In this document: piece by piece, positions 16,217-35,361 of the stretch
Layout of the letters: each line of letters opens with the position of its first letter
How positions within the stretch are numbered: position 1 is the first letter of the stretch
Assembly: GCF_001050195.2 (NCBI RefSeq)
Contig: NZ_DF967968.1
Coordinates: 1 to 51,614 of the forward strand
DNA length: 51,614 bases
DNA from: Anaerolinea thermolimosa
Lineage (GTDB): Bacteria; Chloroflexota; Anaerolineae; Anaerolineales; Anaerolineaceae
Direction of reading: 5' to 3'
Translations under genes and position numbers: made by a program
The notes under the pieces: generated by a model
What the model saw: the letters and a program-made list of their open reading frames with translations, nothing else
What the model was told of the DNA's origin: nothing
Database searches by the model: none

Positions 16217-16253
16217 GCATGACTTTATAAAAAAGGAAAAACATAAAAAAGGG

Positions 16254-16259
16254 TATAAT
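16254..16259 (+). promoter_or_regulatory. -10 element of the FAD oxidoreductase gene, with flanking inverted repeats
   Basis: TATAAT lies 46 bp before the ATG at 16306. ATAAT-N6-ATTAT (16255-16270) overlaps it and GTGC-N6-GCAC (16271-16284) follows; both are small inverted repeats that could be operators. No strong -35 box is visible. Confidence 0.5.
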
Positions 16260-16305
16260 AACCACATTATGTGCCATTTTGCACGATCATCACGCGGAGG
16301 TTAAC

Positions 16306-17730: not shown

Positions 17731-17735
17731 GAGGT

Positions 17736-18539
17736 TTACCCCAGGGTTTTCATCCATGCCACCATCAGGTCTGCCAGGGCCTGTTCGCGGCCGGTATAGA
17801 CATGGTCGGCGCCTTCCACCACTTCAACCCGGTACCCGGCCGGGGGCGATGAGCGCAGCCTGGCCACCACCTGGCACCAGTCCAGCTCCAGCGAACCGCA
17901 GGCCGCCAGAATGGGCAGGTGCAGGCGGGCGAGGTTTTCGAGGGTATCGTCGCCCTGGAGCGAGAGATGCTCGGCGGCAGTCCCGGCAGACATGAGGTAA
18001 GGCCAGTTGCGGTCGGCAAAGAGGGTGTTCCCTTTACCCCTGGCGGCGAGCTTCTGGACGCGTTGCAGCCAGCCCTCGGGGTTGCGTTTGCCGAACTGAT
18101 GGGCAAAATGGCGGGGAATGTCGTGAATGTTGGTGACTGGCGATAGCACACTCAGGCCAACCACGCGGGGGTCTCCGGTCTGGGCCATGTAATAGGCAAC
18201 TTTAGCCCCGGCTTTGCTGTGGCCGAAGAGTGCCACCCGCGAGAACCCGCGCGCTTCCATCAGGTCGAGCGCCGCGCGGATATCGGCGATGCAATCGGCG
18301 AATTTTTCGGTGGCCGCACCCAGCAGCCCCGTGCCGCGGTTGTTGAAAACCAGGGTGGTGTATCCGGCTTCGGCCAGCAGGGGAGGGAGGGCGCTCTCGA
18401 TCTCGCCGATGAAGCTGCCGGTCATGCCGTGGACGATGACCACCCCCAGGGTTGAAGGGTGGTCGCCTCTGGCGGGGTAAATGGCACCGAAGTGCTTCAG
18501 TCCGTCACTTGTGGTCAATCGTACCAGTTCTGCGAGCAT
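17736..18539 (-). CDS. Alpha/beta hydrolase (serine hydrolase)
   Basis: The 267-residue protein has the oxyanion region VVIVHGMTGS (33-42), a nucleophile elbow GHSKAG with Ser108, a late acidic residue near 218-220 (SLELDW) and His246 in EGADHVY, completing a catalytic triad. It resembles small esterases/acyl hydrolases of the DUF1749/dienelactone-like group; substrate unknown. There is no signal peptide. It is the last gene of the dipeptidase-membrane protein-hydrolase run, 21 nt after the membrane protein gene, with a GGAGAGGAAA ribosome-binding stretch. Confidence 0.85.
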   Translation of the reverse strand: MLAELVRLTTSDGLKHFGAIYPARGDHPSTLGVVIVHGMTGSFIGEIESALPPLLAEAGYTTLVFNNRGTGLLGAATEKFADCIADIRAALDLMEARGFSRVALFGHSKAGAKVAYYMAQTGDPRVVGLSVLSPVTNIHDIPRHFAHQFGKRNPEGWLQRVQKLAARGKGNTLFADRNWPYLMSAGTAAEHLSLQGDDTLENLARLHLPILAACGSLELDWCQVVARLRSSPPAGYRVEVVEGADHVYTGREQALADLMVAWMKTLG

Positions 18540-18560
18540 GGTTTTCCTCTCCGAAGAAGA

Positions 18561-19061
18561 TCAGGTTGAATCTCGCCGCCCGGGGGGCAGCATCATGAGA
18601 AATCCTACCGCGATAACTCCCATTCCCAGCTCCACCCCCCGCGCCTGCCATTCGCCAAAATAGGGAATGCCCGGCAGGGGGTGGCTGCCCATGCCGAAGA
18701 TATCGGCCATGCCGGTAAACACGGCGATGACGTAGCCCGTGGCAACCAGACGCTGACCAACATCCGCGGCGATGCTGAGGGGGTGTTCTTTCCATAAAGA
18801 GCGCAGGCTGATGTACCCGCCCACGCAGATGATCGCCAGCCCGACCAAAAACACGGCGATCTGCACAAAGCCGATCACCGGACTGCGGTCTACACCGAAC
18901 AGCCCGGGCCTTGCCCCCAGCAGGAAAATCAGAAACCCCACCAGGGTAACCGCCAGCCCTGTGCGCATCCGCCGCCGCCAGAAGCGTAACGGTCGGGTGG
19001 GCGATTCCTGAGGCTGAGAAGTCAATGGCTCTGCGGCCCGGTTGGGCAGGGGGGCGGTCAT
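18561..19061 (-). CDS. Small integral membrane protein, unknown function
   Basis: The 166-residue protein has about four hydrophobic segments (about 36-52, 62-84, 101-119 and 140-158) after a polar N-terminus ending in RFWRRRMR. No family is recognised. The ATG at 19061 overlaps the dipeptidase stop by 4 nt (ATGA). The longer open frame to 19211 only reads the dipeptidase gene out of frame and is not used. Located between a peptidase and a hydrolase gene in one operon. Confidence 0.75.
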   Translation of the reverse strand: MTAPLPNRAAEPLTSQPQESPTRPLRFWRRRMRTGLAVTLVGFLIFLLGARPGLFGVDRSPVIGFVQIAVFLVGLAIICVGGYISLRSLWKEHPLSIAADVGQRLVATGYVIAVFTGMADIFGMGSHPLPGIPYFGEWQARGVELGMGVIAVGFLMMLPPGRRDST

Positions 19062-20194
19062 GTCTCTGCCAGGTTCCTTTCGAGGAAATGAGCCCAGTTC
19101 TCTCCCATCACAGCGGCGATATCCTCGGTGGCATACCCTGCCTCTGCAAGGCAGGCGGGAAGTTTTTGCAGGTCGGCAATGGTGTTCATGCCCTGAGGAA
19201 CGGCAGGCCACCCCCAGCCGCCATCAAAGTCGGTGCCCAGGCCCACGTGGCGGGCGTCACCGGCAATCTGGCAGACGTGGTCGATGTGCGCCACCAGGTG
19301 AGAGAAAGTGGTCTGTGCTGGGTCGTCCGAGGGAGACCAGCCCGGGCGCAACCAGCGCGCAAAGGGTGAAACACCCATCACACCGTCACGCTCGATGAGC
19401 TGGCGGATGACCCGGTCGCTGAAGTGACGTTCGTTATCAGAAACGCGCAGAAGGGCGCGGCAGTTGGCGTGGGTGGCCGCTACCGGACCTTCGTAGCGGT
19501 CCAGCGCCTGAAGGGCGGAACGTTCGTTCATGTGCGAGATGTCCAGAATCAGCCCCAGACCGGCCATGACTTCCAGCAGTTCGTAGCCTTCGCGGGTGAA
19601 CCCCGCGCGCGACTGACTCCCCCCACAGAAGCGTTCCCCATGGGGTGCCCAGACTGGCCCCACCAGCCGCACCCCCCGTTCACGCCACTCTTCCAGTTCG
19701 GCGGGGGTGTGCAGGCCTTCGGCGTTTTCCATGAGCAGGGTCAGCCCTACCGGGTGGGTGCGTCCCCAGCCATCACTGCTGGCGGTGTTCTCATCGGGGA
19801 GGGTGGCTGGCTGGGTCTTCCAGCGGGCGAAGTGTTCACGCAGGGTTTGCCGGTCGCAGACCCAGCGGAAGCGGTCGGGAAAATCTCCACAGAGGCGCTG
19901 ATAGTAGGCGATCTGTTTTTCCCAGAGGAGACGCGCTTCGGCGCTGGAGCGATAAGTCTGGCTTTCCCAGTCGTCGACGGTGCCGTGGGCGGCGATGAAG
20001 AGCGTGGCAATGACCAGGGCCACCTGCCCCTGCTGGTATTCGGGCCAGCCGAGCATACAATGCCCGTTGCGCTGAGGGATCGCCGAATCCTGCTCGCGGC
20101 GGCGGGTTTCTATCGCCGATTGCAGGTAATCGCGCCCAAAGGTCAGGGCGTTGTAGGCCAGGTCTTCGTGCGCGTCGATCACAGGAAAGGACAT
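19058..20194 (-). CDS. Membrane dipeptidase (M19, renal dipeptidase family)
   Basis: The 378-residue protein has an amidohydrolase-type TIM barrel. The zinc motif HxD is His9/Asp11 in DAHEDLAY, with Glu in place of the usual Asn between. Later family blocks are LDISHMNERS, ATHANCRAL and GLGTDFDGG. M19 enzymes cleave dipeptides, including D-amino-acid-containing ones. No signal peptide is visible. It is the first gene of a three-gene operon. A perfect terminator hairpin (20212-20241) separates it from the S1 gene upstream. Confidence 0.92.
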   Translation of the reverse strand: MSFPVIDAHEDLAYNALTFGRDYLQSAIETRRREQDSAIPQRNGHCMLGWPEYQQGQVALVIATLFIAAHGTVDDWESQTYRSSAEARLLWEKQIAYYQRLCGDFPDRFRWVCDRQTLREHFARWKTQPATLPDENTASSDGWGRTHPVGLTLLMENAEGLHTPAELEEWRERGVRLVGPVWAPHGERFCGGSQSRAGFTREGYELLEVMAGLGLILDISHMNERSALQALDRYEGPVAATHANCRALLRVSDNERHFSDRVIRQLIERDGVMGVSPFARWLRPGWSPSDDPAQTTFSHLVAHIDHVCQIAGDARHVGLGTDFDGGWGWPAVPQGMNTIADLQKLPACLAEAGYATEDIAAVMGENWAHFLERNLAET

Positions 20195-20211
20195 GGAGGA
20201 AAGATCGGGAG

Positions 20212-20241
20212 AAAAAAGAGCGCACCGGCGCCGGTGCGCTC
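20212..20241 (-). terminator. Intrinsic terminator with loop-free perfect palindrome, end of S1 gene
   Basis: On the minus strand a 24-bp perfect palindrome (GAGCGCACCGGC then its reverse complement) is followed at once by six Ts. It begins 17 nt after the S1 gene stop codon. This is a textbook rho-independent terminator, and it shows that this genome uses long spacer-free palindromes as terminators. Confidence 0.9.
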
Positions 20242-20258
20242 ATGGGTCGATGAAAAAA

Positions 20259-21491
20259 TCAGGCTGAAGTTTCGTCGTCTTCGCCGAGTTCGTCCATCAC
20301 TTCTTCCAGCGATTGCCAGTCGAGTTCGGCGTAGGCCTGAGAATCTACCCGTCGCAGGCTGAGGCCAATGCGATGATTGACCGGGTCGATCTTGATGATG
20401 CGCAGGGTCACCGTGTCGCCCTCTTTGAGGACTTCCTTGGGGTGCTCAATACGCCGCTCGCTGATTTCGGAGATGTGGATGAGGCCTTCCAGGTCGGGTT
20501 CCAGGCGGGCAAATGCCCCGAATTTGGTCAGGCGGGTAATCTGAGCCTGCACCAGCATGCCTTCCTGGTATTTTGCGGTGTGCTGAGTCCACGGGTCATC
20601 CTGCAGCTGCCGGATGGAAAGGCCGATGCGCTTTTTCTCGCGGTCAATGCTGATGACCTTGACTTTGACTTCCTGCCCCACCTTGAGTACTTCGCTGGGG
20701 TGGTTAATGCGCTCCCAGGAGATTTCGGAGAGGTGTACCAGGCCGTCTGCACCGTTGATGTTGACAAAGGCCCCAAAATCGGCCAGGCTGGTCACGCGCC
20801 CGGTGCGCACTTCACCTTCGGTCAGTTCTTCGATGACTCTTTCCTTGAGCGACTCGCGGGTTTCACTGCTGGCGGCGCGTTCGCTGAGGATCAGCCGGCG
20901 GCGTTCGCGGTCGACCTCGATCACGCATACATCGATCTCTTCGCCAACCATGCGGCTCCAGCGCTGATCGGGCGTCTCGCCCGACATGCCCGCGCGGCGT
21001 GAGAGGCTTACCTGAGAGGCGGGCACAAAACCGCGCAGGCCCTTGACCGGCACGATCAGCCCTCCCTTGTTGTAGCCCACGATTTTGCTGTGAATGACTT
21101 CCTTGCTCTGAAGCAGGTGTTCGATCTCCTGCCAGCTGACGGCTTCACGCGCCCGCGTGTAGGAGAGCACCAGGTTGCCATTCTGATCTTCAGGGTTAAT
21201 GATGTAAACCGGGATTTCCTGGTTGACCTTCAATTCAGCCAGTTCTTCGGGGGGGATGCTTTCCAGTTCCCGCCCGCTGATGACCCCTTCCGATTTGGTG
21301 CCCACACTTACCAGAATCTGACCGGGGCTGATGCTTGCAATAACGCCTGTGCGGATTTCCCCTGCTTGGGGGAAGTCCATCCCCAGGCCTTCCTTCTCCA
21401 GCAAGGATGCCATACTGTTGTGATTCTCGGCGTTGTTCTCAGGGGTTTCGGCGGCCTTTCCCTGCTCGAGCTGGGTGTCATTCTGATCCAT
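20259..21491 (-). CDS. S1 RNA-binding protein with four S1 domains (bS1-like)
   Basis: The 410-residue protein has an acidic N-terminus and four S1/OB-fold repeats at about 44-113, 131-205, 226-295 and 311-382; the last two are closest to consensus (LADFGAFVNI...GLVHLSEIS and LTKFGAFARL...GLIHISEIS). An acidic tail ends EDDETSA. This is the usual form of ribosomal protein bS1 in Chloroflexota and Gram-positives, which helps mRNA engage the 30S subunit. The ATG at 21491 is chosen because a TTGCCA-17-TATAAT promoter occupies the upstream in-frame extension. A strong terminator follows the gene. Confidence 0.9.
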   Translation of the reverse strand: MDQNDTQLEQGKAAETPENNAENHNSMASLLEKEGLGMDFPQAGEIRTGVIASISPGQILVSVGTKSEGVISGRELESIPPEELAELKVNQEIPVYIINPEDQNGNLVLSYTRAREAVSWQEIEHLLQSKEVIHSKIVGYNKGGLIVPVKGLRGFVPASQVSLSRRAGMSGETPDQRWSRMVGEEIDVCVIEVDRERRRLILSERAASSETRESLKERVIEELTEGEVRTGRVTSLADFGAFVNINGADGLVHLSEISWERINHPSEVLKVGQEVKVKVISIDREKKRIGLSIRQLQDDPWTQHTAKYQEGMLVQAQITRLTKFGAFARLEPDLEGLIHISEISERRIEHPKEVLKEGDTVTLRIIKIDPVNHRIGLSLRRVDSQAYAELDWQSLEEVMDELGEDDETSA

Positions 21492-21528
21492 ACGACTTCT
21501 GAACTCCGGAGGTTTAAGATTAACAACC

Positions 21529-21557
21529 ATTATAAATGCGATTAACCGGATTGGCAA
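21529..21557 (-). promoter_or_regulatory. Promoter of the S1-protein gene
   Basis: On the minus strand TTGCCA and TATAAT are separated by 17 bp; the -10 box ends 37 nt before the chosen ATG at 21491. It rules out the apparent TTG start at 21557. Confidence 0.75.
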
Positions 21558-21685
21558 CCCCGGTTATTGCCCGATATCGTTCACGGGGAGTTTTTTCTCC
21601 TCACAGGATAATTCTGGCGGGCTATTTTCAGGGAGATTCAGACGCGTGGGTTGATGGAGGTGCATGGATTCCCACGGGGCGTCTT

Positions 21686-22990
21686 TCAGGCTTTTGCCTG
21701 AGAGTACGGCTGAAGCCGCTTCAATTCTGCCGGCTCTACCGTGAGCATCGCCTGACGGGCCTGGTCGCGAATGCGGTTGATGCCTGAGAAGAACTCGCGC
21801 ATCATCACCACCAGCAGGTAGCGCCCGTGCGGGGTGAGGGTGATCGCCTCGGCGGTGTTTTCGGCAAAGGCGCCGCTGGCCTGGAAGAAGGCCATTTCCA
21901 GCGGAAGTGATTGCTCAATACTGCGCCCGAAACGCGCCTTCCAGGCCCGCTTGTCGAGCCGCAGACCGAACAGATCCATCATGAAACGATAACGCATCTG
22001 ATCGATTTTGCTGAAACGGCGCTTCCCGGTGATGGGAGCGTGCCCTGAGGCAACCATCCTTCGATAGGTTTCCAGCGAGAAGGTGTTGACGTAAAGCGCG
22101 CCCTGAAGGAAGCTGAACGAACCCGACCCGATCCCTACATATTCATCGCTTTCTACAATGTATTCATCAATGAGATGGTTGCCCTTCCGCGAAAACGTCC
22201 AGGCGGTGGAAAGGTCGAACTCGCGGGTTAATTCCTCGACGATCAGATGGTACAACTCGGCTTCGCGCCGGTATTCCACCTGACCAACAGTGGCCGCAAG
22301 GGAGCGCTGTACAGAGGGCGAGGTCATTAAGGGGTAAAAGGTGGTCTGGTTGGCGCCAGAGGCGATCACCATGGCAATGTCCCGCCGGATGGCAGCTTCA
22401 TCCTGCCCGGGAAAATTAAAGATCATGTCTACGTTGAGCGAGTCAAAACATCCGGCCACACTGCGCAGGCGGTTTAAAATCGCTTCTCCTGAGCCGAAAC
22501 GCTCGTAACGGTTGATTTTTTTGAGCAGTTCATCGTCGAAGCTCTGCACCCCAACCGAAAGGCGTTGCACCCGTCCGTCGAGCACATCGATCAGACGCTG
22601 GTCAAGGTGATTGGGGTTGGTTTCGCAGGAGACCTCGCGAATGGGGAAGAGCTCACGCGCCAGATCGATGGTCTGGACGAGTTCATCGAGCATCACCGTG
22701 GGGGTGCCCCCGCCGATGTAGAGCGTCTCAAACGAATAACCAGCGCGCGCCACCTGACGCATTTCTTCGCGCAGGCTGACGAAATACGAGCGTGCTGAGG
22801 CTTCATCCAGGAGAAAACGGTTGAAAGAGCAATAGGGGCAAAGGCTCTCGCAGAAAGGGATGTGGGTGTAGAGCATATAGGTTTGTCCCGGCTTGGGGGG
22901 CGGCAAAGATACCCGGCTGGCCGGTTGAATGTTGAGTAATACCTGGGCGGCAATGCGAAAAGAGGTTGAGAATACCCCATCCACAATCAT
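21686..22990 (-). CDS. Radical SAM coproporphyrinogen III oxidase-family protein (HemN/HemW-like)
   Basis: The 434-residue protein has the radical SAM cluster motif C47-x3-C51-x2-C54 in YTHIPFCESLCPYCSF and the SAM-binding GGGTPT (93-98), followed by ETNPNHLD and LSVGVQSFDD typical of the HemN/HemW family. A C-terminal HemN-like domain is recognisable (KIDQMRYRFMMDLFGLRL). The family includes anaerobic coproporphyrinogen oxidases, haem chaperones and haem-degrading methyltransferases; which applies here is open. The ATG has GAGGGGA 7 nt upstream. The gene diverges from the zinc-responsive czrA-zntA operon across 236 bp. Confidence 0.85.
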   Translation of the reverse strand: MIVDGVFSTSFRIAAQVLLNIQPASRVSLPPPKPGQTYMLYTHIPFCESLCPYCSFNRFLLDEASARSYFVSLREEMRQVARAGYSFETLYIGGGTPTVMLDELVQTIDLARELFPIREVSCETNPNHLDQRLIDVLDGRVQRLSVGVQSFDDELLKKINRYERFGSGEAILNRLRSVAGCFDSLNVDMIFNFPGQDEAAIRRDIAMVIASGANQTTFYPLMTSPSVQRSLAATVGQVEYRREAELYHLIVEELTREFDLSTAWTFSRKGNHLIDEYIVESDEYVGIGSGSFSFLQGALYVNTFSLETYRRMVASGHAPITGKRRFSKIDQMRYRFMMDLFGLRLDKRAWKARFGRSIEQSLPLEMAFFQASGAFAENTAEAITLTPHGRYLLVVMMREFFSGINRIRDQARQAMLTVEPAELKRLQPYSQAKA

Positions 22991-23144
22991 AAAAAGAGTC
23001 CCCTCTTTAAGAAACAGACCTTTGAGGCAGGGTGTATTACCCGCCGGGTGCTCACAGAAAACCTTTGCATGAGGTTTTTGTAAGCCATTCCGGGTATTGT
23101 ACTCGAAAATCCTCTTCCGGGTAGAAGCGATCTGACTTTTCCTC

Positions 23145-23173
23145 TTGATCTTCCGGATGGAATGCTGTATACT
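23145..23173 (+). promoter_or_regulatory. Promoter of the zinc-resistance operon
   Basis: TTGATC (23145-23150) and TATACT (23168-23173) are 17 bp apart. The operator-like repeat at 23183-23200 lies just downstream of the expected transcription start. Confidence 0.7.
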
Positions 23174-23182
23174 CCTCCAATG

Positions 23183-23200
23183 TATGAATGTTCGCTCATA
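23183..23200. promoter_or_regulatory. Putative ArsR/CzrA-type operator
   Basis: TATGA-N8-TCATA forms an inverted repeat resembling the ATATGA...TCATAT half-sites of zinc-responsive ArsR/SmtB operators. It starts 10 bp past the -10 box of the operon that encodes the matching regulator, so autoregulation by repression is expected and zinc would release it. Confidence 0.65.
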
Positions 23201-23226
23201 TATTCAGATGTTGCACAAAGGAGCCC

Positions 23227-23571
23227 ATGGAACCAAAGGGAACCACAATCGATGAACAGGCGGTGAACAGGGTGCGGGCCGGGTTGATTGACGCACTCAC
23301 CGCCACCCGCCTGGCAGAAGCTTTCGCCGCCCTCTCAGACCCCACCCGTGTGCTGATCATCTCGGCATTGCTGGAGGGTGAGCTGTGTGTTTTCGACCTG
23401 GCGGCTGTGCTGGGCCTTTCTCAGAGCGCCACCTCGCATCAGTTGCGCATTTTACGGCATCTCAACCTGGTGCGTACCCGCAAAGAGGGGCGCCTGGTGT
23501 ATTACGCCCTGGATGATGAGCATATTCGCGATCTTTTTCAGCGCGGCCTCGAGCACGTGCGCCATCGCTGA
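23227..23571 (+). CDS. czrA: ArsR/SmtB-family zinc-type metal sensor (CzrA-like)
   Basis: The 114-residue winged-helix repressor has the HTH segment VFDLAAVLGLSQSATSHQLR (55-74). The C-terminal helix carries D97-x-H99 and H110-x2-H113, which matches the alpha-5 Zn/Co site of CzrA and SmtB. The alpha-3 position reads ELCVFDL with a single Cys, so a Cd/Pb- or arsenic-type site is unlikely. It would repress its own operon until zinc binds. The ATG at 23227 has AAAGGAG just upstream; the extension to 23188 has no support. The zinc ATPase gene starts 28 nt after its stop. Confidence 0.9.
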   Translation: MEPKGTTIDEQAVNRVRAGLIDALTATRLAEAFAALSDPTRVLIISALLEGELCVFDLAAVLGLSQSATSHQLRILRHLNLVRTRKEGRLVYYALDDEHIRDLFQRGLEHVRHR

Positions 23572-23599
23572 GTATTTCAATGCACAGAGGTAACGGCTC

Positions 23600-25789
23600 A
23601 TGACCATTTCTCATCAAACCTATTCTGTGGAAGGCATGGATTGCGCCGATTGCGCCCGCCATATCGAAGAGGGTGTGTCGCGCCTGCCAGGGGTGACCGG
23701 GGCCAGGGTGCATTTTGCGACCGGCCTGCTTGAAGTGGAAGGTGCCCCTGACGAAAAAGCCCTGCGGGCACGGGTAGAATCCCTCGGTTATCGTTTGAAA
23801 GACCCTGCAAACCCGGCTGAAGAAAAACCGGGGGCTGGTGCAGGGGGTTTTATTCGTTTTCTGCTCGCCGCCAGCGAAACGCGCCTGGCGCTCATCGGCG
23901 GGGCAATCCTCCTCCTTTCCCTCCTGGTAGAACCATTCCGCCTGCCGGCTGTGCTGGGCTCTGCTCTGCAGATCATTGCTCTGGGAGTGGCGGGGTGGCC
24001 GGTGGCGCGGGCGGGGCTGGCCAACCTGTGGATTAATCGGAGCATCAGCATCAACCTTTTGATGACCATTGCCGCACTGGGAGCTGTGGTGATTGGAGAT
24101 ATCGCCGAGGCGGCCACCCTGATCTTTCTGTTCGATCTCGCCGAGGCTCTTGAAGGGTATACCACCGAGCGCGCCCGCCGCACTCTCGGAGAATTGCGCA
24201 GTCTGGCTCCGCACCTTGCCCTGCGTGTGAGTGATGCCGGAGAGGCACTGGTGGCGGTAGAAGATCTGCGCCCCGGTGATCGTATCCTCGTCCGGGCCGG
24301 GGAGCGCATCCCCATCGATGGGGAGGTACTGCGCGGGAACAGTGAGGTTGACCAGTCGCCGATCACCGGTGAGAGCATCCCTGTTGAAAAAGGCCCCGGC
24401 GCAAAGGTGTTCGCCGGTTCGGTGAATGGGCGCGGGGTGCTCGAAGTGAAGGTGACGCATCATGCCGAAGACACCACCCTGGCACGGATTGTGCGGATGG
24501 TCACCGAGGCCCAGAACCGGCGCGCCCCCAGCCAGCGTTTCATCGACCGCTTTGCCACCTGGTATACCCCGGTGGTGGTAGGTGTCGCCGTGCTGGTAGC
24601 GATCATTCCCCCGCTTTTCTTCGGTCAGCCTTTCCTTAATTCCGGTGGAGAGACGGGCTGGCTCTACCGGGCGCTGGCTCTGCTGGTGATCGCCTGTCCG
24701 TGCGCGCTGGTCATCAGTGCCCCGGTGACGATCATCTCTGCCATCACTGCGGCGGCCCGGCAGGGAGTGCTCTTTAAGGGCGGGGTGTACCTTGAGGCCC
24801 TGGCGCAGGTGAAGCAGGTAGCTTTCGATAAGACGGGCACACTCACCCGGGGTTCTCCCTCGCTTACCCGTTATCGCGCCGAAGATTGCGCCAACGGCGG
24901 CTCTTGCGAGCCTTCTCGCCCTTGTGAGGCCTGCGGCGATGTGCTTGCCCTGGCCGCCGCCCTGGAGAAACACAGCACTCACCCCCTCGCGCAGGCTGTG
25001 GTAGGGGCGGCACAGCGGGTGGGCCTCGATACGCGTTACCCCCCGGCCGAAGAATTGACCAGTCTTAACGGGCGGGGGTTGCAGGGGCGGGTGGCCGGTC
25101 AGCTTGCGACCATCGGCAACCATGCGCTTTTTGATGCGTATCATCCCCATTCGGATCGACTCTGCGCCGAGGTGAACCAGGCCGAAGCTCAGGGACAGAC
25201 GGCCATGCTCCTCTGTGATGGCCAGCGGGTGCGGGGGTATCTGGCAGTGGCCGATACCCTTCGTCCGGCCAGTCCGGCTGTGGTGGCCGAACTGAAGCGT
25301 CTCGGGCTGCGGACCACCATGCTCACCGGCGATAACCCGGCAGTGGCACAGGAGGTGGGCGCACAACTGGGCATTTCTGAGGTGCGCGCCGGTTTGCTCC
25401 CCGAAGATAAAGTAGAAGCGGTGCGTCAGCTGGCCGCCACTGACGGCCGCCTGGCGATGGTGGGCGATGGCATCAACGATGCCCCGGCCCTTTCTGCGGC
25501 TGAAGTGGGGGTGGCAGTCGGCGGCGCAGGCAGTGCCGCCGCCATGGAGACCGCCGATGTGGTGCTGATGAGCGGTGACCTGAGCCGTCTGCCCTTTGCG
25601 GTGCGGCTGGCGCGCCGCACCCTGGGACTGATCCGGCAAAATGTGGCCGTGAGCCTGGGGATCAAACTGCTTTTCATCCTCCTGGCGCTCAACGGTTGGG
25701 CCACGCTATGGATGGCTGTTGCCGCCGATATGGGCGTTTCTTTGCTGGTGACGTTGAACGGTATGCGCCCGTTACGCATGAAAGCCTGA
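23600..25789 (+). CDS. zntA: Heavy-metal P1B-type ATPase, zinc/cadmium exporter type (ZntA/CadA-like)
   Basis: The 729-residue membrane pump has an N-terminal metal-binding domain GMDCADC (Cys15, Cys18), actuator TGES (256-259), the transmembrane CPC (366-368), phosphorylation motif DKTGTLT (Asp410), HP (461-462) and GDGIND (622-627). Lys689 and Asp710 in the last membrane helices match residues of Zn/Cd/Pb pumps, as opposed to Cu pumps. An extra Cys cluster (Cys430, 436, 442, 445) follows the phosphorylation site. It would expel zinc or cadmium from the cytoplasm. It is cotranscribed with the CzrA-like sensor. The stop codon lies 18 bp from the window's symmetry axis. Confidence 0.96.
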   Translation: MTISHQTYSVEGMDCADCARHIEEGVSRLPGVTGARVHFATGLLEVEGAPDEKALRARVESLGYRLKDPANPAEEKPGAGAGGFIRFLLAASETRLALIGGAILLLSLLVEPFRLPAVLGSALQIIALGVAGWPVARAGLANLWINRSISINLLMTIAALGAVVIGDIAEAATLIFLFDLAEALEGYTTERARRTLGELRSLAPHLALRVSDAGEALVAVEDLRPGDRILVRAGERIPIDGEVLRGNSEVDQSPITGESIPVEKGPGAKVFAGSVNGRGVLEVKVTHHAEDTTLARIVRMVTEAQNRRAPSQRFIDRFATWYTPVVVGVAVLVAIIPPLFFGQPFLNSGGETGWLYRALALLVIACPCALVISAPVTIISAITAAARQGVLFKGGVYLEALAQVKQVAFDKTGTLTRGSPSLTRYRAEDCANGGSCEPSRPCEACGDVLALAAALEKHSTHPLAQAVVGAAQRVGLDTRYPPAEELTSLNGRGLQGRVAGQLATIGNHALFDAYHPHSDRLCAEVNQAEAQGQTAMLLCDGQRVRGYLAVADTLRPASPAVVAELKRLGLRTTMLTGDNPAVAQEVGAQLGISEVRAGLLPEDKVEAVRQLAATDGRLAMVGDGINDAPALSAAEVGVAVGGAGSAAAMETADVVLMSGDLSRLPFAVRLARRTLGLIRQNVAVSLGIKLLFILLALNGWATLWMAVAADMGVSLLVTLNGMRPLRMKA

Positions 25790-25825
25790 GCCACCTGCCG
25801 CAGGCCATGGCCTGCGGCAGGTGGC
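25790..25825. terminator. Hairpin at the symmetry axis, probable zntA terminator and fold-back point
   Basis: The 36 bp between the two zntA stop codons form one perfect palindrome centred on CCATGG (axis 25807/25808). The position just after zntA and the GC-rich stem fit an intrinsic terminator, whose natural downstream T-run would have been lost at the fold-back. Because the whole window is palindromic, the natural extent of the hairpin cannot be measured from this sequence. Confidence 0.6.
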
Positions 25826-28015
25826 TCAGGCTTTCATGCGTAACGGGCGCATACCGTTCAACGTCACCAGCAAAGAAACGCCCATATCGGCGGCAACAGC
25901 CATCCATAGCGTGGCCCAACCGTTGAGCGCCAGGAGGATGAAAAGCAGTTTGATCCCCAGGCTCACGGCCACATTTTGCCGGATCAGTCCCAGGGTGCGG
26001 CGCGCCAGCCGCACCGCAAAGGGCAGACGGCTCAGGTCACCGCTCATCAGCACCACATCGGCGGTCTCCATGGCGGCGGCACTGCCTGCGCCGCCGACTG
26101 CCACCCCCACTTCAGCCGCAGAAAGGGCCGGGGCATCGTTGATGCCATCGCCCACCATCGCCAGGCGGCCGTCAGTGGCGGCCAGCTGACGCACCGCTTC
26201 TACTTTATCTTCGGGGAGCAAACCGGCGCGCACCTCAGAAATGCCCAGTTGTGCGCCCACCTCCTGTGCCACTGCCGGGTTATCGCCGGTGAGCATGGTG
26301 GTCCGCAGCCCGAGACGCTTCAGTTCGGCCACCACAGCCGGACTGGCCGGACGAAGGGTATCGGCCACTGCCAGATACCCCCGCACCCGCTGGCCATCAC
26401 AGAGGAGCATGGCCGTCTGTCCCTGAGCTTCGGCCTGGTTCACCTCGGCGCAGAGTCGATCCGAATGGGGATGATACGCATCAAAAAGCGCATGGTTGCC
26501 GATGGTCGCAAGCTGACCGGCCACCCGCCCCTGCAACCCCCGCCCGTTAAGACTGGTCAATTCTTCGGCCGGGGGGTAACGCGTATCGAGGCCCACCCGC
26601 TGTGCCGCCCCTACCACAGCCTGCGCGAGGGGGTGAGTGCTGTGTTTCTCCAGGGCGGCGGCCAGGGCAAGCACATCGCCGCAGGCCTCACAAGGGCGAG
26701 AAGGCTCGCAAGAGCCGCCGTTGGCGCAATCTTCGGCGCGATAACGGGTAAGCGAGGGAGAACCCCGGGTGAGTGTGCCCGTCTTATCGAAAGCTACCTG
26801 CTTCACCTGCGCCAGGGCCTCAAGGTACACCCCGCCCTTAAAGAGCACTCCCTGCCGGGCCGCCGCAGTGATGGCAGAGATGATCGTCACCGGGGCACTG
26901 ATGACCAGCGCGCACGGACAGGCGATCACCAGCAGAGCCAGCGCCCGGTAGAGCCAGCCCGTCTCTCCACCGGAATTAAGGAAAGGCTGACCGAAGAAAA
27001 GCGGGGGAATGATCGCTACCAGCACGGCGACACCTACCACCACCGGGGTATACCAGGTGGCAAAGCGGTCGATGAAACGCTGGCTGGGGGCGCGCCGGTT
27101 CTGGGCCTCGGTGACCATCCGCACAATCCGTGCCAGGGTGGTGTCTTCGGCATGATGCGTCACCTTCACTTCGAGCACCCCGCGCCCATTCACCGAACCG
27201 GCGAACACCTTTGCGCCGGGGCCTTTTTCAACAGGGATGCTCTCACCGGTGATCGGCGACTGGTCAACCTCACTGTTCCCGCGCAGTACCTCCCCATCGA
27301 TGGGGATGCGCTCCCCGGCCCGGACGAGGATACGATCACCGGGGCGCAGATCTTCTACCGCCACCAGTGCCTCTCCGGCATCACTCACACGCAGGGCAAG
27401 GTGCGGAGCCAGACTGCGCAATTCTCCGAGAGTGCGGCGGGCGCGCTCGGTGGTATACCCTTCAAGAGCCTCGGCGAGATCGAACAGAAAGATCAGGGTG
27501 GCCGCCTCGGCGATATCTCCAATCACCACAGCTCCCAGTGCGGCAATGGTCATCAAAAGGTTGATGCTGATGCTCCGATTAATCCACAGGTTGGCCAGCC
27601 CCGCCCGCGCCACCGGCCACCCCGCCACTCCCAGAGCAATGATCTGCAGAGCAGAGCCCAGCACAGCCGGCAGGCGGAATGGTTCTACCAGGAGGGAAAG
27701 GAGGAGGATTGCCCCGCCGATGAGCGCCAGGCGCGTTTCGCTGGCGGCGAGCAGAAAACGAATAAAACCCCCTGCACCAGCCCCCGGTTTTTCTTCAGCC
27801 GGGTTTGCAGGGTCTTTCAAACGATAACCGAGGGATTCTACCCGTGCCCGCAGGGCTTTTTCGTCAGGGGCACCTTCCACTTCAAGCAGGCCGGTCGCAA
27901 AATGCACCCTGGCCCCGGTCACCCCTGGCAGGCGCGACACACCCTCTTCGATATGGCGGGCGCAATCGGCGCAATCCATGCCTTCCACAGAATAGGTTTG
28001 ATGAGAAATGGTCAT
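25826..28015 (-). CDS. zntA: Zinc/cadmium P1B-type ATPase, mirror copy
   Basis: Identical inverted copy of the 729-residue pump at 23600-25789, with the GMDCADC, CPC and DKTGTLT motifs intact. The two copies face each other tail to tail across the axis. See the left-arm entry for motif positions. Confidence 0.9.
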   Translation of the reverse strand: MTISHQTYSVEGMDCADCARHIEEGVSRLPGVTGARVHFATGLLEVEGAPDEKALRARVESLGYRLKDPANPAEEKPGAGAGGFIRFLLAASETRLALIGGAILLLSLLVEPFRLPAVLGSALQIIALGVAGWPVARAGLANLWINRSISINLLMTIAALGAVVIGDIAEAATLIFLFDLAEALEGYTTERARRTLGELRSLAPHLALRVSDAGEALVAVEDLRPGDRILVRAGERIPIDGEVLRGNSEVDQSPITGESIPVEKGPGAKVFAGSVNGRGVLEVKVTHHAEDTTLARIVRMVTEAQNRRAPSQRFIDRFATWYTPVVVGVAVLVAIIPPLFFGQPFLNSGGETGWLYRALALLVIACPCALVISAPVTIISAITAAARQGVLFKGGVYLEALAQVKQVAFDKTGTLTRGSPSLTRYRAEDCANGGSCEPSRPCEACGDVLALAAALEKHSTHPLAQAVVGAAQRVGLDTRYPPAEELTSLNGRGLQGRVAGQLATIGNHALFDAYHPHSDRLCAEVNQAEAQGQTAMLLCDGQRVRGYLAVADTLRPASPAVVAELKRLGLRTTMLTGDNPAVAQEVGAQLGISEVRAGLLPEDKVEAVRQLAATDGRLAMVGDGINDAPALSAAEVGVAVGGAGSAAAMETADVVLMSGDLSRLPFAVRLARRTLGLIRQNVAVSLGIKLLFILLALNGWATLWMAVAADMGVSLLVTLNGMRPLRMKA

Positions 28016-28043
28016 GAGCCGTTACCTCTGTGCATTGAAATAC

Positions 28044-28388
28044 TCAGCGATGGCGCACGTGCTCGAGGCCGCGCTGAAAAAGATCGCGAATATGCTCATC
28101 ATCCAGGGCGTAATACACCAGGCGCCCCTCTTTGCGGGTACGCACCAGGTTGAGATGCCGTAAAATGCGCAACTGATGCGAGGTGGCGCTCTGAGAAAGG
28201 CCCAGCACAGCCGCCAGGTCGAAAACACACAGCTCACCCTCCAGCAATGCCGAGATGATCAGCACACGGGTGGGGTCTGAGAGGGCGGCGAAAGCTTCTG
28301 CCAGGCGGGTGGCGGTGAGTGCGTCAATCAACCCGGCCCGCACCCTGTTCACCGCCTGTTCATCGATTGTGGTTCCCTTTGGTTCCAT
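28044..28388 (-). CDS. czrA: CzrA-like zinc sensor, mirror copy
   Basis: Identical copy of the 114-residue ArsR-family repressor at 23227-23571, with the same D97/H99/H110/H113 zinc site and start choice; it precedes the mirrored zinc pump by 28 nt. Confidence 0.85.
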   Translation of the reverse strand: MEPKGTTIDEQAVNRVRAGLIDALTATRLAEAFAALSDPTRVLIISALLEGELCVFDLAAVLGLSQSATSHQLRILRHLNLVRTRKEGRLVYYALDDEHIRDLFQRGLEHVRHR

Positions 28389-28414
28389 GGGCTCCTTTGT
28401 GCAACATCTGAATA

Positions 28415-28432
28415 TATGAGCGAACATTCATA
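28415..28432. promoter_or_regulatory. ArsR/CzrA-type operator, mirror copy
   Basis: TATGA-N8-TCATA inverted repeat, mirror of 23183-23200. Confidence 0.6.
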
Positions 28433-28441
28433 CATTGGAGG

Positions 28442-28470
28442 AGTATACAGCATTCCATCCGGAAGATCAA
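28442..28470 (-). promoter_or_regulatory. Zinc operon promoter, mirror copy
   Basis: TTGATC-17-TATACT on the minus strand, mirror of 23145-23173. Confidence 0.65.
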
Positions 28471-28624
28471 GAGGAAAAGTCAGATCGCTTCTACCCGGAA
28501 GAGGATTTTCGAGTACAATACCCGGAATGGCTTACAAAAACCTCATGCAAAGGTTTTCTGTGAGCACCCGGCGGGTAATACACCCTGCCTCAAAGGTCTG
28601 TTTCTTAAAGAGGGGACTCTTTTT

Positions 28625-29929
28625 ATGATTGTGGATGGGGTATTCTCAACCTCTTTTCGCATTGCCGCCCAGGTATTACTCAACATTCAACCGGCCAGCC
28701 GGGTATCTTTGCCGCCCCCCAAGCCGGGACAAACCTATATGCTCTACACCCACATCCCTTTCTGCGAGAGCCTTTGCCCCTATTGCTCTTTCAACCGTTT
28801 TCTCCTGGATGAAGCCTCAGCACGCTCGTATTTCGTCAGCCTGCGCGAAGAAATGCGTCAGGTGGCGCGCGCTGGTTATTCGTTTGAGACGCTCTACATC
28901 GGCGGGGGCACCCCCACGGTGATGCTCGATGAACTCGTCCAGACCATCGATCTGGCGCGTGAGCTCTTCCCCATTCGCGAGGTCTCCTGCGAAACCAACC
29001 CCAATCACCTTGACCAGCGTCTGATCGATGTGCTCGACGGACGGGTGCAACGCCTTTCGGTTGGGGTGCAGAGCTTCGACGATGAACTGCTCAAAAAAAT
29101 CAACCGTTACGAGCGTTTCGGCTCAGGAGAAGCGATTTTAAACCGCCTGCGCAGTGTGGCCGGATGTTTTGACTCGCTCAACGTAGACATGATCTTTAAT
29201 TTTCCCGGGCAGGATGAAGCTGCCATCCGGCGGGACATTGCCATGGTGATCGCCTCTGGCGCCAACCAGACCACCTTTTACCCCTTAATGACCTCGCCCT
29301 CTGTACAGCGCTCCCTTGCGGCCACTGTTGGTCAGGTGGAATACCGGCGCGAAGCCGAGTTGTACCATCTGATCGTCGAGGAATTAACCCGCGAGTTCGA
29401 CCTTTCCACCGCCTGGACGTTTTCGCGGAAGGGCAACCATCTCATTGATGAATACATTGTAGAAAGCGATGAATATGTAGGGATCGGGTCGGGTTCGTTC
29501 AGCTTCCTTCAGGGCGCGCTTTACGTCAACACCTTCTCGCTGGAAACCTATCGAAGGATGGTTGCCTCAGGGCACGCTCCCATCACCGGGAAGCGCCGTT
29601 TCAGCAAAATCGATCAGATGCGTTATCGTTTCATGATGGATCTGTTCGGTCTGCGGCTCGACAAGCGGGCCTGGAAGGCGCGTTTCGGGCGCAGTATTGA
29701 GCAATCACTTCCGCTGGAAATGGCCTTCTTCCAGGCCAGCGGCGCCTTTGCCGAAAACACCGCCGAGGCGATCACCCTCACCCCGCACGGGCGCTACCTG
29801 CTGGTGGTGATGATGCGCGAGTTCTTCTCAGGCATCAACCGCATTCGCGACCAGGCCCGTCAGGCGATGCTCACGGTAGAGCCGGCAGAATTGAAGCGGC
29901 TTCAGCCGTACTCTCAGGCAAAAGCCTGA
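28625..29929 (+). CDS. Radical SAM HemN/HemW-like protein, mirror copy
   Basis: Identical copy of the 434-residue coproporphyrinogen oxidase-family protein at 21686-22990, including the C-x3-C-x2-C cluster motif and the GAGGGGA ribosome-binding site. Confidence 0.82.
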   Translation: MIVDGVFSTSFRIAAQVLLNIQPASRVSLPPPKPGQTYMLYTHIPFCESLCPYCSFNRFLLDEASARSYFVSLREEMRQVARAGYSFETLYIGGGTPTVMLDELVQTIDLARELFPIREVSCETNPNHLDQRLIDVLDGRVQRLSVGVQSFDDELLKKINRYERFGSGEAILNRLRSVAGCFDSLNVDMIFNFPGQDEAAIRRDIAMVIASGANQTTFYPLMTSPSVQRSLAATVGQVEYRREAELYHLIVEELTREFDLSTAWTFSRKGNHLIDEYIVESDEYVGIGSGSFSFLQGALYVNTFSLETYRRMVASGHAPITGKRRFSKIDQMRYRFMMDLFGLRLDKRAWKARFGRSIEQSLPLEMAFFQASGAFAENTAEAITLTPHGRYLLVVMMREFFSGINRIRDQARQAMLTVEPAELKRLQPYSQAKA

Positions 29930-30057
29930 AAGACGCCCCGTGGGAATCCATGCACCTCCATCAACCCACGCGTCTGAATCTCCCTGAAAATAGCCCGCCA
30001 GAATTATCCTGTGAGGAGAAAAAACTCCCCGTGAACGATATCGGGCAATAACCGGGG

Positions 30058-30086
30058 TTGCCAATCCGGTTAATCGCATTTATAAT
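30058..30086 (+). promoter_or_regulatory. S1-protein promoter, mirror copy
   Basis: TTGCCA-17-TATAAT, mirror of 21529-21557; read directly on this strand at 30058-30063 and 30081-30086. Confidence 0.72.
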
Positions 30087-30123
30087 GGTTGTTAATCTTA
30101 AACCTCCGGAGTTCAGAAGTCGT

Positions 30124-31356
30124 ATGGATCAGAATGACACCCAGCTCGAGCAGGGAAAGGCCGCCGAAACCCCTGAGAACAACGCCGAGAATCACAACAG
30201 TATGGCATCCTTGCTGGAGAAGGAAGGCCTGGGGATGGACTTCCCCCAAGCAGGGGAAATCCGCACAGGCGTTATTGCAAGCATCAGCCCCGGTCAGATT
30301 CTGGTAAGTGTGGGCACCAAATCGGAAGGGGTCATCAGCGGGCGGGAACTGGAAAGCATCCCCCCCGAAGAACTGGCTGAATTGAAGGTCAACCAGGAAA
30401 TCCCGGTTTACATCATTAACCCTGAAGATCAGAATGGCAACCTGGTGCTCTCCTACACGCGGGCGCGTGAAGCCGTCAGCTGGCAGGAGATCGAACACCT
30501 GCTTCAGAGCAAGGAAGTCATTCACAGCAAAATCGTGGGCTACAACAAGGGAGGGCTGATCGTGCCGGTCAAGGGCCTGCGCGGTTTTGTGCCCGCCTCT
30601 CAGGTAAGCCTCTCACGCCGCGCGGGCATGTCGGGCGAGACGCCCGATCAGCGCTGGAGCCGCATGGTTGGCGAAGAGATCGATGTATGCGTGATCGAGG
30701 TCGACCGCGAACGCCGCCGGCTGATCCTCAGCGAACGCGCCGCCAGCAGTGAAACCCGCGAGTCGCTCAAGGAAAGAGTCATCGAAGAACTGACCGAAGG
30801 TGAAGTGCGCACCGGGCGCGTGACCAGCCTGGCCGATTTTGGGGCCTTTGTCAACATCAACGGTGCAGACGGCCTGGTACACCTCTCCGAAATCTCCTGG
30901 GAGCGCATTAACCACCCCAGCGAAGTACTCAAGGTGGGGCAGGAAGTCAAAGTCAAGGTCATCAGCATTGACCGCGAGAAAAAGCGCATCGGCCTTTCCA
31001 TCCGGCAGCTGCAGGATGACCCGTGGACTCAGCACACCGCAAAATACCAGGAAGGCATGCTGGTGCAGGCTCAGATTACCCGCCTGACCAAATTCGGGGC
31101 ATTTGCCCGCCTGGAACCCGACCTGGAAGGCCTCATCCACATCTCCGAAATCAGCGAGCGGCGTATTGAGCACCCCAAGGAAGTCCTCAAAGAGGGCGAC
31201 ACGGTGACCCTGCGCATCATCAAGATCGACCCGGTCAATCATCGCATTGGCCTCAGCCTGCGACGGGTAGATTCTCAGGCCTACGCCGAACTCGACTGGC
31301 AATCGCTGGAAGAAGTGATGGACGAACTCGGCGAAGACGACGAAACTTCAGCCTGA
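30124..31356 (+). CDS. Four-S1-domain protein (bS1-like), mirror copy
   Basis: Identical copy of the 410-residue S1 protein at 20259-21491, starting at the ATG downstream of the promoter; four S1 repeats and an acidic tail. Confidence 0.86.
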   Translation: MDQNDTQLEQGKAAETPENNAENHNSMASLLEKEGLGMDFPQAGEIRTGVIASISPGQILVSVGTKSEGVISGRELESIPPEELAELKVNQEIPVYIINPEDQNGNLVLSYTRAREAVSWQEIEHLLQSKEVIHSKIVGYNKGGLIVPVKGLRGFVPASQVSLSRRAGMSGETPDQRWSRMVGEEIDVCVIEVDRERRRLILSERAASSETRESLKERVIEELTEGEVRTGRVTSLADFGAFVNINGADGLVHLSEISWERINHPSEVLKVGQEVKVKVISIDREKKRIGLSIRQLQDDPWTQHTAKYQEGMLVQAQITRLTKFGAFARLEPDLEGLIHISEISERRIEHPKEVLKEGDTVTLRIIKIDPVNHRIGLSLRRVDSQAYAELDWQSLEEVMDELGEDDETSA

Positions 31357-31373
31357 TTTTTTCATCGACCCAT

Positions 31374-31403
31374 GAGCGCACCGGCGCCGGTGCGCTCTTT
31401 TTT
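31374..31403 (+). terminator. Intrinsic terminator after S1 gene, mirror copy
   Basis: 24-bp loop-free palindrome followed by six Ts (31398-31403), mirror of 20212-20241. Confidence 0.88.
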
Positions 31404-31420
31404 CTCCCGATCTTTCCTCC

Positions 31421-32557
31421 ATGTCCTTTCCTGTGATCGACGCGCACGAAGACCTGGCCTACAACGCCCTGACCTTTGGGCGCGATTACCTGCAATCGGC
31501 GATAGAAACCCGCCGCCGCGAGCAGGATTCGGCGATCCCTCAGCGCAACGGGCATTGTATGCTCGGCTGGCCCGAATACCAGCAGGGGCAGGTGGCCCTG
31601 GTCATTGCCACGCTCTTCATCGCCGCCCACGGCACCGTCGACGACTGGGAAAGCCAGACTTATCGCTCCAGCGCCGAAGCGCGTCTCCTCTGGGAAAAAC
31701 AGATCGCCTACTATCAGCGCCTCTGTGGAGATTTTCCCGACCGCTTCCGCTGGGTCTGCGACCGGCAAACCCTGCGTGAACACTTCGCCCGCTGGAAGAC
31801 CCAGCCAGCCACCCTCCCCGATGAGAACACCGCCAGCAGTGATGGCTGGGGACGCACCCACCCGGTAGGGCTGACCCTGCTCATGGAAAACGCCGAAGGC
31901 CTGCACACCCCCGCCGAACTGGAAGAGTGGCGTGAACGGGGGGTGCGGCTGGTGGGGCCAGTCTGGGCACCCCATGGGGAACGCTTCTGTGGGGGGAGTC
32001 AGTCGCGCGCGGGGTTCACCCGCGAAGGCTACGAACTGCTGGAAGTCATGGCCGGTCTGGGGCTGATTCTGGACATCTCGCACATGAACGAACGTTCCGC
32101 CCTTCAGGCGCTGGACCGCTACGAAGGTCCGGTAGCGGCCACCCACGCCAACTGCCGCGCCCTTCTGCGCGTTTCTGATAACGAACGTCACTTCAGCGAC
32201 CGGGTCATCCGCCAGCTCATCGAGCGTGACGGTGTGATGGGTGTTTCACCCTTTGCGCGCTGGTTGCGCCCGGGCTGGTCTCCCTCGGACGACCCAGCAC
32301 AGACCACTTTCTCTCACCTGGTGGCGCACATCGACCACGTCTGCCAGATTGCCGGTGACGCCCGCCACGTGGGCCTGGGCACCGACTTTGATGGCGGCTG
32401 GGGGTGGCCTGCCGTTCCTCAGGGCATGAACACCATTGCCGACCTGCAAAAACTTCCCGCCTGCCTTGCAGAGGCAGGGTATGCCACCGAGGATATCGCC
32501 GCTGTGATGGGAGAGAACTGGGCTCATTTCCTCGAAAGGAACCTGGCAGAGACATGA
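31421..32557 (+). CDS. M19 membrane dipeptidase, mirror copy
   Basis: Identical copy of the 378-residue zinc dipeptidase at 19058-20194 (His9/Asp11 zinc motif); first gene of the mirrored three-gene operon. Confidence 0.88.
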   Translation: MSFPVIDAHEDLAYNALTFGRDYLQSAIETRRREQDSAIPQRNGHCMLGWPEYQQGQVALVIATLFIAAHGTVDDWESQTYRSSAEARLLWEKQIAYYQRLCGDFPDRFRWVCDRQTLREHFARWKTQPATLPDENTASSDGWGRTHPVGLTLLMENAEGLHTPAELEEWRERGVRLVGPVWAPHGERFCGGSQSRAGFTREGYELLEVMAGLGLILDISHMNERSALQALDRYEGPVAATHANCRALLRVSDNERHFSDRVIRQLIERDGVMGVSPFARWLRPGWSPSDDPAQTTFSHLVAHIDHVCQIAGDARHVGLGTDFDGGWGWPAVPQGMNTIADLQKLPACLAEAGYATEDIAAVMGENWAHFLERNLAET

Positions 32558-33054
32558 CCGCCCCCCTGCCCAACCGGGCCGCAGAGCCATTGACTTCTCA
32601 GCCTCAGGAATCGCCCACCCGACCGTTACGCTTCTGGCGGCGGCGGATGCGCACAGGGCTGGCGGTTACCCTGGTGGGGTTTCTGATTTTCCTGCTGGGG
32701 GCAAGGCCCGGGCTGTTCGGTGTAGACCGCAGTCCGGTGATCGGCTTTGTGCAGATCGCCGTGTTTTTGGTCGGGCTGGCGATCATCTGCGTGGGCGGGT
32801 ACATCAGCCTGCGCTCTTTATGGAAAGAACACCCCCTCAGCATCGCCGCGGATGTTGGTCAGCGTCTGGTTGCCACGGGCTACGTCATCGCCGTGTTTAC
32901 CGGCATGGCCGATATCTTCGGCATGGGCAGCCACCCCCTGCCGGGCATTCCCTATTTTGGCGAATGGCAGGCGCGGGGGGTGGAGCTGGGAATGGGAGTT
33001 ATCGCGGTAGGATTTCTCATGATGCTGCCCCCCGGGCGGCGAGATTCAACCTGA
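32554..33054 (+). CDS. Small integral membrane protein, mirror copy
   Basis: Identical copy of the 166-residue, roughly four-helix membrane protein at 18561-19061, overlapping the dipeptidase stop by 4 nt. Confidence 0.72.
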   Translation: MTAPLPNRAAEPLTSQPQESPTRPLRFWRRRMRTGLAVTLVGFLIFLLGARPGLFGVDRSPVIGFVQIAVFLVGLAIICVGGYISLRSLWKEHPLSIAADVGQRLVATGYVIAVFTGMADIFGMGSHPLPGIPYFGEWQARGVELGMGVIAVGFLMMLPPGRRDST

Positions 33055-33075
33055 TCTTCTTCGGAGAGGAAAACC

Positions 33076-33879
33076 ATGCTCGCAGAACTGGTACGATTGA
33101 CCACAAGTGACGGACTGAAGCACTTCGGTGCCATTTACCCCGCCAGAGGCGACCACCCTTCAACCCTGGGGGTGGTCATCGTCCACGGCATGACCGGCAG
33201 CTTCATCGGCGAGATCGAGAGCGCCCTCCCTCCCCTGCTGGCCGAAGCCGGATACACCACCCTGGTTTTCAACAACCGCGGCACGGGGCTGCTGGGTGCG
33301 GCCACCGAAAAATTCGCCGATTGCATCGCCGATATCCGCGCGGCGCTCGACCTGATGGAAGCGCGCGGGTTCTCGCGGGTGGCACTCTTCGGCCACAGCA
33401 AAGCCGGGGCTAAAGTTGCCTATTACATGGCCCAGACCGGAGACCCCCGCGTGGTTGGCCTGAGTGTGCTATCGCCAGTCACCAACATTCACGACATTCC
33501 CCGCCATTTTGCCCATCAGTTCGGCAAACGCAACCCCGAGGGCTGGCTGCAACGCGTCCAGAAGCTCGCCGCCAGGGGTAAAGGGAACACCCTCTTTGCC
33601 GACCGCAACTGGCCTTACCTCATGTCTGCCGGGACTGCCGCCGAGCATCTCTCGCTCCAGGGCGACGATACCCTCGAAAACCTCGCCCGCCTGCACCTGC
33701 CCATTCTGGCGGCCTGCGGTTCGCTGGAGCTGGACTGGTGCCAGGTGGTGGCCAGGCTGCGCTCATCGCCCCCGGCCGGGTACCGGGTTGAAGTGGTGGA
33801 AGGCGCCGACCATGTCTATACCGGCCGCGAACAGGCCCTGGCAGACCTGATGGTGGCATGGATGAAAACCCTGGGGTAA
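33076..33879 (+). CDS. Alpha/beta hydrolase, mirror copy
   Basis: Identical copy of the 267-residue serine hydrolase at 17736-18539 (GHSKAG nucleophile elbow, His246). Confidence 0.82.
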   Translation: MLAELVRLTTSDGLKHFGAIYPARGDHPSTLGVVIVHGMTGSFIGEIESALPPLLAEAGYTTLVFNNRGTGLLGAATEKFADCIADIRAALDLMEARGFSRVALFGHSKAGAKVAYYMAQTGDPRVVGLSVLSPVTNIHDIPRHFAHQFGKRNPEGWLQRVQKLAARGKGNTLFADRNWPYLMSAGTAAEHLSLQGDDTLENLARLHLPILAACGSLELDWCQVVARLRSSPPAGYRVEVVEGADHVYTGREQALADLMVAWMKTLG

Positions 33880-33884
33880 ACCTC

Positions 33885-35309: not shown

Positions 35310-35355
35310 GTTAACCTCCGCGTGATGATCGTGCAAAATGGCACATAATGTGGTT

Positions 35356-35361
35356 ATTATA
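35356..35361 (-). promoter_or_regulatory. -10 element of FAD oxidoreductase gene, mirror copy
   Basis: TATAAT on the minus strand, mirror of 16254-16259, with the same overlapping inverted repeats. Confidence 0.48.

Follow-up and report, generated by a model that had tools for sequence, protein, structure and literature searches.

Contig C4 of Anaerolinea thermolimosa (G000:C4:1-51614) reads the same on both strands, and this raises the question of whether such a mirror is a property of the organism or of its assembly, and which sequence lies at the point where it folds. The window analyzed here is this entire contig of 51,614 bp, which consists of a single end-to-end inverted repeat.

Mirror structure of the window

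The two arms of C4 comprise 25,807 bp each, are 99.992% identical and meet without a loop. Bases are unpaired only at positions 2 and 6, which lie opposite positions 51613 and 51609. The runner-up symmetry axis pairs just 37% over 300 bp, so that chance symmetry is excluded. The sequence-only reading had placed the axis 18 bp past the stop codon of zntA, and this placement is exact to the base, with the TGA at 25787-25789 and the axis at 25807/25808. The window contains the following features.

1..84, plus strand: outer edge of C4, part of a dispersed repeat at which the contig probably broke
1..25807, plus strand: left arm, unique sequence with ABC transporter genes, M16 peptidases, an S1-domain protein, an ArsR-type regulator and zntA
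20218..20241, minus strand: 24-bp loop-free palindrome of the S1-domain gene, with TTTTTT behind it on that strand; resembles an ordinary intrinsic terminator
23188..23571, plus strand: ArsR-family regulator adjoining zntA
23600..25789, plus strand: zntA-type P-type metal ATPase with HMA, E1-E2 ATPase and haloacid-dehalogenase-like hydrolase domains; last gene ahead of the axis
25794..25821, no strand: loop-free palindromic core of 28 bp, CCTGCCGCAGGCCATGGCCTGCGGCAGG, identical to the axis of a second contig, C5 (C5:6805-6832); probable true join of the C4 and C5 arms
25807..25808, no strand: symmetry axis, exact center of the contig
25808..51614, minus strand: mirror copy of the left arm with 2 mismatches; most likely an assembly duplicate and no extra DNA
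25826..28015, minus strand: mirror copy of zntA

The repeat at the outer edge of C4 recurs over 83-84 bp with 99% identity at three further places and over ~105 bp with 91-93% identity at two more, all of them in contig C1. The break of C4 at this edge was probably caused by the repeat. NMT1-type ABC transporter genes occupy window positions 337-2979, at the outer end of the left arm.

A second folded contig and the shared core

A search of the genome with the center of C4 returned a 28-bp exact match besides C4 itself, located in contig C5 (G000:C5, 13,636 bp). C5 is also a palindrome over its full length, with 3 mismatches that all fall within the outermost 4 bases. Each of the two contigs equals its own reverse complement, and the halves are exactly even in both. 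A creatininase-family gene ends at position 6790 of C5, and 28 bp separate its stop codon from the C5 axis. In addition to this gene, C5 encodes a GGDEF protein that also contains a periplasmic-binding-type domain, a GroEL with 92% identity to the GroEL of the genus relative G004, and a PPIase; tandem repeats above the threshold were not found in C5. The existence of this second contig shifts the reading of the locus from a folded terminator to two neighbors, each wrongly joined to itself.

Read outward from their axes, C4 and C5 are identical for exactly 14 bases, and the first base outside the core already differs. The stretch from 25794 to 25821 can be called native because it is exactly what C5 has in common with C4. 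The core starts 4 bp past the stop codon on the zntA side and 14 bp past the stop codon on the creatininase side. It is very unlikely that two unrelated sites would agree by chance over 14 independent bases. When the genome was searched for a 17-base part of the core and up to 2 mismatches were allowed, the only exact matches lay at the C4 and C5 axes; four further matches, all in C1, had 2 mismatches each. The core is absent from the eight ends of C1, C2, C3 and C6 (last 120 bases each), which leaves no alternative partner for either arm. No further long copy of either the zntA region or the creatininase region was found in the genome; the remaining matches to them span 117 bp (72%) and 40 bp (85%).

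Outside this genome, the hairpin pattern of the core is rare. It occurs in 1 of 147 genomes of the family, namely, this one, and in none of the 146 others. A scan of GTDB with one genome per species, which may omit records very close to this genome, used the 22 fixed bases of the core (CCTGCCGCAGG-6-CCTGCGGCAGG) and matched six other stretches. In all six, the 6-nt center is not CCATGG and is not palindromic, with at most 1 base paired at the axis, which marks them as ordinary hairpins. The possibility that the core is a technical linker or adapter was considered and rejected, as all six matches have another 6-nt center and the 28-mer is thus not a reagent that recurs in other assemblies of this collection; judged from these sequence matches, an origin of the core in a sequencing reagent is unlikely. 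The same six stretches, with their differing loops, would suit a dispersed hairpin element of which the genome holds two separate copies, each having folded independently. Just two copies were found in the genome, however, both of them axial, and no unfolded copy exists among them, which leaves very little probability for such an element.

A probable single junction and the competing explanations

The palindrome at the fold point is real, and the mirror surrounding it is very probably an assembly mistake; there is a high probability that the 51.6-kb mirror is not a property of the organism. The preferred reading, with a probability of roughly 0.77, is that a single palindrome lies between the convergent zntA and creatininase genes and that the assembler misjoined each of its two arms to its own mirror. 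We infer, as the most likely course of events, both that the arms of C4 and C5 are neighbors in the genome and which assembly step failed. The chromosome would then have a gap of 46 bp between the convergent zntA and creatininase-family genes, containing a single perfect palindrome of 28 bp, and the native order would be zntA, its TGA, 4 bp, the core, 14 bp and the stop codon of the convergent creatininase gene. Because the core is its own reverse complement, an assembler operating with words of fewer than 28 bases would be blind to the direction of exit. Its output would be the C4 arm, the core and the mirrored C4 arm as one contig and the C5 arm, the core and the mirrored C5 arm as another, instead of the C4 arm, the core and the mirrored C5 arm. 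A single native junction predicts that the folded contigs have only the palindrome in common and differ just outside it, which matches the observation.

The ambiguity at the core was followed in a k-mer graph built from the joined arms with 1 kb on each side. A walk from C4 reached either the far side or its own mirror at k values of 21, 23, 25 and 27, which identifies the core as a k-mer-ambiguous palindrome at the axis; at k values of 29, 31, 55 and 77, the far side of the assumed join was the sole endpoint. Another loop-free palindrome of 28 bp, TAAGGGCTGCCCGGCCGGGCAGCCCTTA, is found at C6:99229-99256, between flanks that are unrelated and ahead of a T-rich tail. Used as a control, it creates the same ambiguity in the k-mer graph, and yet it was assembled normally. 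Ambiguity therefore permits folding, and length alone is insufficient for it. Loss of coverage at the GC-rich hairpin is a plausible cause of folding at the core and not at C6. The earlier proposal of a short native palindrome as the turn-back point, with an error of assembly or copying as the likeliest cause, is supported by these results, and perfect palindromes of 24 bp (S1 gene) and 28 bp (C6) are native to this genome.

By its gaps and contig edges, the genome resembles an assembly scaffolded from short reads. N runs and GC skew were sampled in 28 stretches of 20 kb from C1, C2, C3 and C6. These stretches contain 20 N runs with lengths of 10 to 2,240 bases, and C4 and C5 contain none. Three N runs end at, or one base off, the starting base of C1 within the dispersed repeat, as determined by script, and others, identified by eye in the C1 and C3 stretches, border the edges where C3 and C4 begin and where C6 ends. 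The N runs look like scaffold gaps at mobile elements, although part of them could be masking by the operator, so that some would not be gaps. Four of the 10 contig edges (C1 start, C3 start, C3 end and the outer edge of C4) lie ~83-90 bp inside repeats, with the C1 start 84-85 bp into its repeat, the C3 start 85 bp into another and the far end of C3 at ~86 bp. Such a depth is not seen at the remaining six edges: the C2 start has matches of 47 and 76 bp and the C6 end has matches of 94-120 bp, and no dispersed match was found at the C1 end, the C2 end, the C6 start or the outer edge of C5. The latter matches C5 alone, so that a repeat does not account for the break of C5. Apart from dispersed repeats, the ends examined show no overlaps that tie C4 or C5 to other contigs. 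The start of C2 (positions 1-120) forms an inverted repeat with arms of ~46 bp and a spacer of ~25 bp, as judged by eye, at a dispersed-repeat edge of the GGGGACATTTCTATTTTGC type.

The repeat-edge depth of ~83-90 bp suggests that the final word length of the assembly was well above 28. With a final word length that is probably larger than the core, the misjoin would require an early step with small k or reads that were already folded. Folded molecules could also explain the locus in their own right, if a strand with the palindrome at its end folded back and copied itself in the course of library preparation or amplification and the resulting chimeric reads were assembled faithfully. The mirror would remain an artifact, arising at the bench rather than in the assembly graph. 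The core is a strong hairpin, and the accessible portions of the published accounts describe palindromic reads as well documented after whole-genome amplification (PMC6218980) and as present in long reads as well (PMC12870357). The artifacts handled by Pacasus (PMC6218980) and Breakinator (PMC12870357) resemble C4 and C5 in their mirror about a central breakpoint; according to the same portions, however, they occur at the level of reads, whereas C4 and C5 are contigs with one specific core in common. Two contigs with the same 28 bp and no third copy found indicate one site and not random snap-back, and snap-back reads would need to exceed the reads of the true junction on both sides. An origin at the bench is therefore unlikely, though less so than any of the other alternatives.

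The least probable explanation, with hardly any weight, is a real large palindrome in living cells, produced by inverted-repeat amplification or by template switching of a fork at the hairpin. For mammalian cells, short inverted repeats are named as seeds of large palindromes in the title of a reference within PMC12870357. Against a cellular origin, this genome contains two such palindromes, the symmetry of each extends exactly to the ends of its contig, and neither locus is present in a long single-copy form. Inverted-repeat amplification in vivo, as raised by the sequence-only reading, finds no support and would not explain two contigs folded at one identical core. Perfect arms of 25.8 kb without a central spacer are not known to be stably maintained in bacteria.

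C4 and C5 might also represent the hairpin telomeres of a linear replicon. In that case, each contig would be one covalently closed end of a linear plasmid or chromosome, with the core as the half-site of a telomere resolvase. Both palindromic contigs have the identical terminal core, and resolved hairpin ends that were read through would look like C4 and C5. The 28-bp core is indeed present at both axes, but a misjoin predicts this equally. The family PF16684 (ResT-TelK_cat) has 0 matches in the genome, a result weakened by its control set of 14 genomes, which gave one match (Synechococcus elongatus) and includes no species known to have hairpin telomeres. The core, furthermore, starts 4 and 14 bp past ordinary stop codons. 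In the accessible text on the systems of N15 (TelN), Borrelia (ResT) and Agrobacterium (TelA), the likeness consists of two ends with one palindromic target and of mirrors produced by read-through; the differences are that no such resolvase was found in the genome of C4 and C5, that the skews of the arms are opposite and that the core is located behind ordinary stops. Hairpin telomeres are disfavored, and linear-replicon ends with a common 28-bp terminus and a resolvase unrelated to ResT, TelN and TelA are just as improbable as the general case, at a few chances in a hundred.

The skew data bear on both the telomeres and the preferred single junction. Toward the axis, the C4 arm has a skew of +0.056 (10/10 windows) and the C5 arm one of -0.066 (4/4 windows), whereas forks running outward at both ends of a linear replicon predict the same sign. 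With opposite skews toward the axes, the path from C4 to C5 runs with one sign, and 23 of 25 1-kb bins in C4 and all 6 in C5 are positive through the join. This is modest evidence for the join, as agreement in sign has a one-in-two chance and the skew of C2 is mixed (2 samples positive and 2 negative). C1 starts at -0.037, is positive in 5/5 samples from 180 kb to 900 kb, reaches -0.097 at 1.08 Mb and +0.090 at 1.26 Mb, and is negative in 12/12 samples from 1.44 Mb to the contig end; C3 and C6 are positive in 2/2 samples each. The switch from plus to minus within C1, at ~1.26-1.44 Mb, also argues against telomeres at C4 and C5 and is probably the replication terminus. The dnaA gene is located at C1:434479-434952, between two positive skew samples and with no visible switch. 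Two adjacent DnaA-domain matches (7.5e-8 and 1.7e-7) are found at C2:219754-220683 on the minus strand, separate from the main dnaA.

Four relatives within the genus were compared. zntA was found in three (63-71% protein identity) and the creatininase in two (69-77%), and a match to the ArsR-family regulator adjoins zntA in all three relatives with zntA. The fourth relative, G002 (61% complete), shows only a 46-bp match to zntA and no match to the creatininase. A hairpin after zntA had been expected in relatives, but within 200 bp past the match end a comparable palindrome is present at none of the three zntA sites and none of the two creatininase sites, a result that speaks against that expectation but weighs weakly because the spacers are unrelated. 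The best stem at these five sites has 7 bp and a 6-nt loop, and the sequences downstream of zntA differ among the three relatives. G004 contains the PPIase, GroEL and creatininase genes in the order of C5, with the GGDEF gene unmatched there, and its genes beyond the creatininase match C2:130-134 kb and C1:220 kb of this genome. In G005, relatives of the NMT1-type ABC transporter genes of C4 lie ~4.5 kb downstream of zntA (L048:14203-16844), which indicates that the gene order near zntA has been reshuffled. Synteny was considered as proof of the join and set aside, as the neighboring genes are not kept in the relatives and the gene order is too mixed to decide. At the level of sequence comparison, the relatives neither confirm nor refute the join.

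Probable role of the hairpin and meaning of the folded contigs

The sequence-only reading had regarded the axis as a standard intrinsic terminator, an assignment that is not supported. Like a Rho-independent terminator, the core is a GC-rich stem right behind a stop codon, with a folding energy of -26.3 kcal/mol (z = -4.95) for the core alone and of -49.3 kcal/mol for 25785-25830 as assembled. Unlike such a terminator and the S1-gene site in C4, it has no T-run: neither native flank provides one, including the flank on the C5 side, CAAGGTGAAG, and a terminator scan that detected the S1 site found nothing terminator-like at the axis. The palindrome of the S1 gene is 24 bp long and loop-free, as had been stated, and begins at 20218; the span given for its terminator, 20212-20241, also includes the A-run that reads as TTTTTT on the minus strand. 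In the cell, the core would act as a plain RNA hairpin between two gene ends, with a possible function in protection of the 3' end or in bidirectional termination. Provided that the two arms are truly joined, the position of the core between the two genes makes a hairpin at the 3' end of the RNA its most likely role, whether or not it also terminates transcription.

Palindromic contigs have been described in other assemblies. In the accessible parts of these reports, 81 palindromic contigs from SPAdes assemblies of Mycobacterium bovis (PMC9455707) and palindromic contigs from single-cell assemblies of Synechococcus (PMC12755884) were judged to be likely assembly errors, in agreement with the misjoin proposed for C4 and C5. 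C4 and C5 are like these contigs in that the whole contig is palindromic and the genes appear twice in reverse complement. The difference is that the same parts of the reports name neither a short native palindrome nor a partner contig with a matching core as the source of the axis.

C4 and C5 provide a clean example of how palindromic contigs can originate, as the expected remnant of one native junction that was resolved wrongly twice. A possible flag for such cases would be to find contigs that equal their own reverse complement, to compare their central 20-60 bp and to test the join. Errors of this type double gene counts and may inflate estimates of contamination. If the misjoin is true, ~32.6 kb of sequence in the genome of A. 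thermolimosa (25,807 + 6,818 bp) is falsely duplicated, and no claim of a giant palindrome, an amplification or a telomere should rest on C4. The axis and the short hairpin do exist where they had been described, as ordinary biology at the center of an instructive artifact.
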